From Clostridia bacterium (GTDB lineage: Bacteria; Bacillota; Clostridia; Oscillospirales; CAG-272): DNA of 64,000 nt. The notes under the pieces were generated by a model that did not search any database, was not told the DNA's origin, and saw nothing but the letters and a program-made list of their open reading frames with translations. The position numbers were made by a program, and so were the translations under genes. Of this stretch, positions 1,526 through 2,072 are shown one piece after another. Position 1 is the first letter of the stretch. Every line of letters begins with the position of its first letter. The DNA is taken from contig JAGASL010000025.1 of NCBI GenBank assembly GCA_017621755.1, forward strand, positions 1-64,000, read 5' to 3'.

Positions 1526-1717
1526 CTTATTGCACCTTCCTTTCCTTTGGTGCTTTAAGTGTACTATAAAGACAGAAAATCTGCAAATGTGCAAAAAAGA
1601 AAAATACGAGAAACACCGAAATGTTCTCGTATCTTTCTTCGCCTCCGCAATGCTCGTTATTCTTAATTCTCGGAAACTGTCCTTAAGAACGAGCAGCAGA
1701 AGCTTGTCGATTTTTTT

Positions 1718-1731
1718 GCCTACCCGACAGG
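1718..1731 (+). repeat. 14-bp copy of the tRNA-Arg 3' end
   Basis: The bases GCCTACCCGACAGG occur here and again at 1897-1910, where they form the 3' acceptor/T-arm end of the tRNA-Arg gene. A duplicated tRNA 3' end in direct orientation is what an integrase attachment site would look like, but the enclosed 165 bp contain no integrase, so this may be a trace of a past insertion or part of a repeat family. Confidence 0.45.
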
Positions 1732-1752
1732 GTAACTACGCTACGCTCCGTG

Positions 1753-1805
1753 ATACGCGCGCCCTTCGCCTGGCAAGCAAGCTTGCCGATCTTCGGGCGG
1801 CGTAT
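1753..1805. repeat. Nested imperfect palindrome (REP-like)
   Basis: Outer arms ATACGCGCGCCC and GGGCGGCGTAT enclose a perfect inner hairpin GGCAAGC-AA-GCTTGCC. No open reading frame with a ribosome site is present. It lies in the 369-base stretch between tnpV and the tRNA, which otherwise holds only other repeats. Bases 1806-1850 on the minus strand (CTCTGAGAGAGGCTGG...) resemble the element at 5291-5430, suggesting a dispersed family. Confidence 0.5.
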
Positions 1806-1847
1806 GCGAACCTGCCACGCTCCTGCGTCGCGCCAGCCTCTCTCAGA

Positions 1848-1904
1848 GGGTAGGCCAAAAGGAAAGGGACGGTCCCAGACCGTCCCTTTCCTTTTGGCCT
1901 ACCC
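1848..1904. repeat. Perfect 27-bp inverted repeat overlapping the tRNA 3' end
   Basis: Arms 1848-1874 and 1878-1904 are exactly complementary with a three-base loop (CCA). The right arm includes the CCA end, the discriminator base and part of the acceptor stem of tRNA-Arg. On the minus strand the inner part (GGGACGGTC/GACCGTCCC then TTTCCTTTT) could act as the tRNA terminator, while the outer arms could compete with the tRNA acceptor stem. Confidence 0.8.
1862..1896 (-). terminator. Probable intrinsic terminator of tRNA-Arg
   Basis: On the minus strand, directly after the tRNA, a 9-bp GC-rich stem (1866-1874 with 1878-1886) is followed in the transcript by a pyrimidine tract. It is the core of the larger 27-bp inverted repeat. 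Confidence 0.5.
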
Positions 1905-1971
1905 GACAGGATTCGAACCTGCGACCTCGAGAGTCGGAGTCTCGCGCGCTATCCAGCTGAGCCACGGGTAG
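1895..1971 (-). tRNA. tRNA-Arg (anticodon CCG)
   Basis: A complete cloverleaf can be drawn: acceptor stem CTACCCG/CGGGTAG, D arm GCTCAGCTGGATAGCGC, anticodon stem CGAGA/TCTCG around the seven-base loop CTCCGAC, T arm with GGTTCGAATCC, discriminator G and an encoded CCA. Anticodon CCG reads the CGG arginine codon. The encoded CCA end lies inside a 27-bp inverted repeat. Confidence 0.95.
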
Positions 1972-2072
1972 ATGATATTCTTGCGAACACATCCAGTATT
2001 TTACCACAGAAAAAGCAAAAAGTAAAGGGGAATTTGAAATTTTTGAAAAAACGTAAAGATTTTTCTTTTTCG

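Follow-up and report, generated by a model that had tools for sequence, protein, structure and literature searches.

The 64,000-nt stretch of DNA analysed here (the window; contig JAGASL010000025.1 of a Clostridia bacterium) contains a single tRNA gene called by ARAGORN, a tRNA-Arg(CCG) at 1895–1971 on the minus strand, whose CCA end, as read from the sequence, is encoded in the gene. The last ten bases of this gene (1895–1904) sit inside one arm of an inverted repeat, the two arms of which (1848–1874 and 1878–1904; 27 nt each) were 100% complementary in a repeat search and are separated by 3 nt. The runner-up within the 1.8 kb searched was an inverted repeat of 16 nt at 94%, and 27 perfect pairs appear to be far above chance expectation. 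A direct repeat was also returned (1713–1731 and 1892–1910; 19 nt, 95%), within which the bases 1718–1731 match the tRNA bases 1897–1910 exactly over 14 nt. An earlier note on this DNA had claimed both that the tRNA-Arg 3′ end lies within a perfect 27-bp inverted repeat with a loop of three bases and that a 14-base copy of the tRNA end occurs at 1718; both observations were confirmed. The hairpin and the 14-nt copy are two pieces of one larger unit, spanning about 1700–1904 (Table 1), and the RNA fold of 1700–1971 lies 6.9 standard deviations below those of shuffled sequences.

Table 1. Features of the tRNA-Arg(CCG) locus and of the composite unit beside it
Feature	Position	Strand	Remark
Promoter-like site upstream of the tRNA	1998..2026	-	9/12 consensus matches; consensus match only
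tRNA-Arg(CCG)	1895..1971	-	intact, CCA encoded
Arm A, perfect 27-bp hairpin	1848..1904	-	loop 1875-1877
S′, reverse copy of tRNA 3′ end	1848..1857	+	clear for only these 10 nt
Arm B, second hairpin region (X)	1815..1847	-	between reverse and direct T-stem copies
S1, 8-nt copy of tRNA positions 50-57, CAGGTTCG	1807..1814	-	directly before core hairpin
Arm C, conserved 55-nt core hairpin	1752..1806	-	model R1 spans 1752-1813
Arm D, small hairpin region, ACGnAG type	1737..1751	-	type seen in 12/83 units
S2, displaced tRNA 3′ end	1718..1736	-	14 nt (1718-1731) identical to tRNA
Probable remnant of old tRNA-Arg terminator	1700..1717	-	likeness by eye

In related gut bacteria, units of this kind, approximately 180 bases long, adjoin tRNA genes of many kinds. 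Read from the tRNA outwards, they consist of the tRNA tail, a terminator-like hairpin, a reverse copy of the tail (S′), a second hairpin, an 8-base copy of tRNA positions 50–57 (S1), a 55-base core hairpin, a small hairpin and the displaced tail (S2). Ten base pairs of Arm A are made by the tRNA end and the reverse copy; the remaining pairs form a terminator-like stem that contains A and U tracts. Its inner part has terminator character; the U tract falls inside the 3′ side of the stem, and the terminator scan did not list the arm. In the window, S′ is decayed beyond its clear bases, towards 1833, as is Arm B, which is clearer in other units. The core hairpin begins with CAT on the minus strand, and its symmetric internal loop and CUUG/CUCG end loop are found in nearly all aligned copies. 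Arm D is of the ACGnAG type in 12 of 83 units and TTCG-like in 60. Beyond S2, the segment 1700–1717 resembles, by eye, the start of the terminator lying directly behind tRNA-Arg(CCG) in four other loci (L019, L025, L028 and L029), and is a probable remnant of the old tRNA-Arg terminator. Open reading frames touching the ~180-nt insert, all of them mechanical listings, reach at most 113 aa, and no integrase gene lies between the tRNA and its displaced end.

The interior of the region matched other places in a BLAST search of 59 genomes (its own and those of relatives), many of which adjoin other tRNAs. The core structure has 17 pairs and was fitted by 20 gap-free cores, one truncated copy being left out of the alignment; 96.8% of the core cells were paired (shuffled, 85.1; slid, 17–49), a percentage biased towards the structure, which was drawn by eye from the same alignment. 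Better evidence comes from two-sided changes, which affected 8 pairs and 35 cells. A covariance model of the core (R1) matched 47 of 60 genomes of the genus at E ≤ 0.001, with up to 14 matches per genome when diverged sister kinds of core are included, and 6 of 197 genomes of the order, among them the own genome and two with weak matches. The own genome has two core copies, the second of which lies behind a tRNA-Glu. An exact pattern was found in 107 stretches of genome contigs; among the 80 of these that were listed, all were metagenome-assembled genomes (MAGs) titled Clostridia, Oscillospiraceae or Ruminococcus, and a ruminant gut sample was named for 52 by our own count. The pattern had no exact match in viral contigs, and the core no blastn match among plasmids or phages. 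With Rfam, the gathering score was reached in 1400–2300 by the tRNA only, the core belonging to no family; the other 20 matches in this region were below gathering and mostly miRNA models on the hairpin. Diverged cores were seen at further tRNAs. In L222, L218 and L247, three or four cores follow one another in tandem at intervals of 134–171 nt.

The position of the cores was determined in two samples, drawn from genomes that are mostly drafts or MAGs in many contigs, with several units near contig ends. The first comprised 119 of 135 fetched matches, each scoring at least 50 bits (14 matches below 50 bits, L098, which had been fetched twice, and L105, cut by a contig end at 1–54, were left out). 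Of these cores 75 lay within 450 nt downstream of a same-strand tRNA, 9 adjoined a tRNA-Ser at its 5′ end, 1 was placed otherwise, and 34 had no tRNA that near. The second, a pattern sample of 91 cores that was not chosen by tRNA and shares some genomes with the first, had 52 cores downstream of a same-strand tRNA, at 14 tRNA kinds, 9 beside a tRNA-Ser 5′ end and 30 without a tRNA, 20 of the last having less than 450 nt of upstream sequence. Random positions in the same loci fell downstream of a same-strand tRNA in 133 of 4000 cases.

Units in L071, L079, L128, L130, L162, L163, L165, L166 and L176 stand beside the 5′ end of an opposite-strand tRNA-Ser(cga/tga); where the sequence was inspected, the part that is split corresponds to the tRNA-Ser 5′ part in reverse complement (CGCTTCG, then ATACCTCTGC), and a palindrome has arisen ahead of the gene. 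Some cores without a tRNA carry only a tRNA 3′ half, and L060 has what is by appearance a tmRNA 3′ end, absent from the ARAGORN calls. The tRNA 3′ halves in L058, L126, L223 and L260 begin near the anticodon, with similar sequence ahead (..GAAAGCATCGTTTTCGGAC..); they are likely island ends, the island having gone into a tRNA and moved away a tail that already bore the unit. The tRNA-less units of L057, L137, L149, L217 and L225 are preceded by boundary sequences resembling one another (GCATCTTTTTTGTCAACACG and variants), which may mark where another mobile element ends.

The flanks of the core match the tRNA beside which they lie. Over 85 distinct first units, the mean scores against the own tRNA were 12.2 for S′, 8.7 for S1 and 9.4 for S2, versus 6.4, 6.6 and 5.8 against other isotypes, and the 95th percentile of the control was exceeded in 61, 17 and 49 units, respectively, the figure for S1 being low because 12 nt were scored. 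S1 was identical to the own tRNA over 9 nt in 23 of 83 units and over 5 nt in 30, and had at most one mismatch in 9 nt in 67. When the comparison was narrowed to T-stem positions 50–53 ahead of the core, a choice made after seeing that the match began at position 50, identity with the own tRNA was found in 76 of 83 units versus 26 of 6296 comparisons with other stems. Per-position identity of S1 is 0.96–0.99 at 50–53 and at most 0.39 just before; that of the reverse copy, for which 60 of the 85 units were used, falls from 0.73 at position 50 to 0.53 at 49 and 0.07 at 48. Of the 61 units in which S2 is clear, 23 have a terminator-like hairpin behind it (shuffled, 1); the other 38, the window's unit included, showed none in our test.

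The cores themselves are shared across tRNAs. On different isotypes, 73 pairs of cores had no more than 4 differences in 55 positions and 16 pairs no more than 2, and an identical core (0/55) occurs at tRNA-Cys and tRNA-Gly (L252 and L270) and at tRNA-Gln(ttg) and tRNA-Gln(ctg) (L208 and L267), with S1 local at each. Flanks and terminators differ between the members of near-identical pairs, and the small hairpin is common to L208 and L267 and different in L208 and L259; the core is thus the shared part, and the tRNA-derived remainder follows the site. For 56 of 83 units the nearest core stands at another tRNA kind. When only cores adjoining tRNAs are considered, the closest counterpart from another genome was at the same tRNA in 46% of cases versus 9% when shuffled, which means that descent or homologous exchange explains much of the pattern; much of it may have been inherited together with the tRNA. 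The closest cores were those of the same tRNA in other genomes (mean of 14.0 differences in 62). Spread within one genome was considered and rejected, as cores at different tRNAs were hardly closer there (mean 15.9/62) than between genomes (16.7).

Strong covariation in the core also speaks for a functional structured RNA, i.e. a regulatory or processing RNA attached to tRNA genes, in which the reverse copy would have two possible pairing partners, the tRNA tail and the displaced copy (a four-way junction), and could so switch read-through transcripts. This reading gains from the minimum-energy folds of the 85 units, in which arms A, B, C and D were present in 66, 69, 59 and 69 cases and all four in 36 (counts without a shuffled control), and from the predicted destruction of the acceptor stem by read-through. 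Predicted acceptor-stem pairing is 0 for transcripts that include the right arm in full (ends at 1848 or further), 0.88 at end 1856 and 0.11 at ends 1858 or 1860; for the mature tRNA-Arg alone it is 0.19, so that the plain folder misfolds the tRNA itself and little weight can be put on the predicted damage. The idea of the earlier note that the hairpin could compete with the acceptor stem is accordingly weak. Against a structured RNA, the unit sits behind a terminator-like hairpin, R1 misses 13 of the 60 congeners, and S′ and S2 drift from the tRNA independently: over 1096 aligned positions, S′ alone differs at 221, S2 alone at 119 and both at 40, 12 of them alike, where we estimate that independent drift would give about 38 double differences, 13 alike. 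There is therefore no sign of selected pairing between these copies, and a switch kept by compensatory selection was rejected; the core, in contrast to the drifting S′ and S2, keeps its structure. Altogether, we consider a functional RNA improbable as the explanation of the unit.

Comparison with relatives bears on another reading, in which an ordinary intrinsic terminator reaches by chance into the tRNA and is accompanied by a chance duplicate. The inner stem does have terminator character, and behind tRNA-Arg(CCG) most congeners carry a terminator whose sequence varies. Among 33 distinct tRNA-Arg(CCG) loci, the own included (33 of 34 were compared, one being too short), a reverse copy was detected in 8 and a displaced tail in 7 at z ≥ 3; the window locus has z of 2.7 for the reverse copy and 6.5 for the displaced tail. 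At this tRNA, 27 perfect pairs are likewise present in the relative G065, where the inner stem is unrelated. Given that stem and the presence of copies in a minority of loci, the hairpin is not the constant terminator of tRNA-Arg(CCG), and the pattern that the earlier note had named as contrary evidence, the same hairpin serving as an ordinary terminator in all relatives, did not appear. As the duplicated pieces, the core and their order recur at many tRNA kinds, a chance terminator is already contradicted and can be regarded as highly improbable. No other copy of the 27-bp arm emerged in the own genome: apart from the query site and its own inverse, BLAST of the region returned just the second core and another tRNA. 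The inner 12-mer of the arm had 11 matches with up to one mismatch, of which the two window arms alone were exact, versus 26 matches for a reversed control.

A search for two sites with conserved flanks, one bearing an R1-core unit and the other empty, yielded none: the flanking genes have been rearranged between G000 and G065, and the flanks of the G065 site map to other G000 contigs. A tRNA-Cys/Gly cluster of the genus was used for the comparison instead. In L329–L333, tRNA-Gly and tRNA-Cys are 35–53 nt apart with a plain terminator between them, L329, L332 and L333 serving as tRNA-Gly sites without an insert. L338, the site with an insert, has an intact tRNA-Gly, the insert, a second tRNA-Gly tail (one base shorter), a terminator resembling that of L329 and L332, and then tRNA-Cys. 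The old tail and terminator have thus been displaced at tRNA-Gly by a related insert, and the arrangement is the outcome expected from an insertion into the T loop with a new tail supplied. The insert of L338 is without the R1 core, and shows the process for a wider kind of insert, not for the core of the window. In L328 the spacer between tRNA-Gly and tRNA-Cys is longer, and no second tail is visible.

Several other arrangements were noticed around these genes. Inserts at tRNA-Arg with the same outline and different hairpins were seen by eye in L014, L016, L022 and L030. Upstream of the intact tRNA-Arg(CCG), by up to about 230 nt, an interrupted copy of the tRNA 5′ half occurs in L022, L026, L034 and L037, with the break in the anticodon loop (CTCCG, then CATACCGC or CATTCCGC.., later AACTCTGAAG); judged from these sequences, the anticodon loop may be a second target for a similar hairpin insert. 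Arrays of short hairpins (TATATCATCACGC.., CATGTAATCACGC..) found directly 3′ of the tRNA terminators in L017, L020, L023, L026, L328 and L331 represent a different kind of repeat.

The unit could also be a mutational scar in which no mobile element took part: a replication fold-back at the terminator hairpin, that is, a small tandem inversion duplication, would have made the tail, the reverse copy and the second copy, and the core would have come by recombination. The direct-reverse-direct order with hairpins at both junctions, the arms of G000 and G065, perfect in both but with inner stems unrelated to each other, and the tandem units present in L043, L044, L052 and L218 are all in agreement with such an origin. 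Random template switching, however, predicts neither an edge at position 50 that recurs at many different tRNAs nor a core at the same T-loop position in the units shown, and we think a scar of this type unlikely.

Our preferred reading, which we consider probable though well short of certain, is that the window holds a site occupied by a small insertion element that encodes no protein, is built of several hairpins and is directed at the T loop of tRNA genes. The note's suggestion of a scar of mobile DNA that uses the tRNA as a target is in this sense supported, by the recurrence of the composite repeat at many tRNA kinds and by the tRNA-Gly comparison. The entry point would be between tRNA positions 57 and 58 (TTCG^A). 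The left end of the element would supply a new T-loop-to-CCA tail and a terminator-like hairpin, so that the tRNA stays functional, and the corresponding part of tRNA-Arg(CCG) in the window would be such a restored copy; the old tail and the old terminator would have been shifted about 180 nt downstream. The insert would consist of the reverse copy of approximately tRNA positions 50–76, the 8-nt direct copy of 50–57, the core hairpin and one further hairpin. Within it, the core hairpin would be the mobile part, and the target may have served as template for the tRNA-derived flanks, either during insertion or later, with fold-back synthesis or an RNA intermediate as the route; some enzyme acting in trans would carry this out. 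Mobility is proposed here from sequence comparison, no movement having been observed.

No recombinase, transposase or reverse transcriptase could be linked to the element, the Y1 transposase being the only one tested. Mobilisation by IS200/605 or RAYT was rejected, as Y1 (PF01797) does not co-occur with the units: it was present in 12 of 36 genomes, and among unit-bearing genomes it was absent from G000, G002, G006 and G011, present once each in G012 and G022 and twice in G005, while G004 has one Y1 and no R1 match. A bolder possibility, about which we are rather doubtful, is that of a new gene-less bacterial mobile element, a four-hairpin unit that would recognise the T loop by its structure and transfer positions 50–76 of whichever tRNA it enters to its own flanks, perhaps through copying primed by the tRNA or by the unit itself, each insertion thereby repairing its target.

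If the insertion reading is true, it would show a way for non-coding DNA to enter essential tRNA genes time and again while the cell survives, each target being rebuilt from itself. The units, found at many tRNA kinds in many gut Clostridia, represent a large natural data set on the movement of hairpin elements in bacteria, and they explain odd copies of tRNA tails that could be mistaken for island attachment sites. No earlier description of the repeat was found in the titles and abstract openings of the open-access papers that the searches returned.

Among known systems, REP/RAYT and IS200/IS605 elements are palindromic, non-coding and dispersed; unlike them, the units show no association with Y1 transposase genes. 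Tandem inversion duplications, or fold-back triplications, comprise direct, reverse and direct copies with palindromic junctions. The unit has the same order of copies and similar junctions, but differs in its recurrent edge at position 50 and in the conserved core within the third copy. GC clusters are grouped with short, repetitive, hairpin-forming and potentially mobile elements. To our knowledge, neither tRNA islands nor mitochondrial hairpin elements copy their flanks from the target.

In tRNA islands of the Islander type (PMC4383910), the target gene is regenerated and the displaced fragment lies at the far end, and likewise the window's unit has an intact tRNA and a displaced 3′ fragment (S2 exceeding the 95th percentile of the control in 49 of 85 units, thus not in all). 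In contrast to these integrase-mediated islands, it is only about 180 nt long, has no integrase gene, occurs at many tRNA kinds, has a tail copy that matches the local tRNA and contains a reverse copy inside. A T-loop attB is described for phage Ms6 (PMC1762012). Mitochondrial repetitive or double hairpin elements are characterised in PMC2800124 as short, repetitive, hairpin-forming, potentially mobile and of no known function. The unit resembles them in being composed of short non-coding hairpins with near-identical copies at different tRNAs. The mitochondrial elements, in that same account, are organellar and not tied to tRNA tails, whereas the flanks of our unit appear to be copied from the target and its core has a conserved internal loop.
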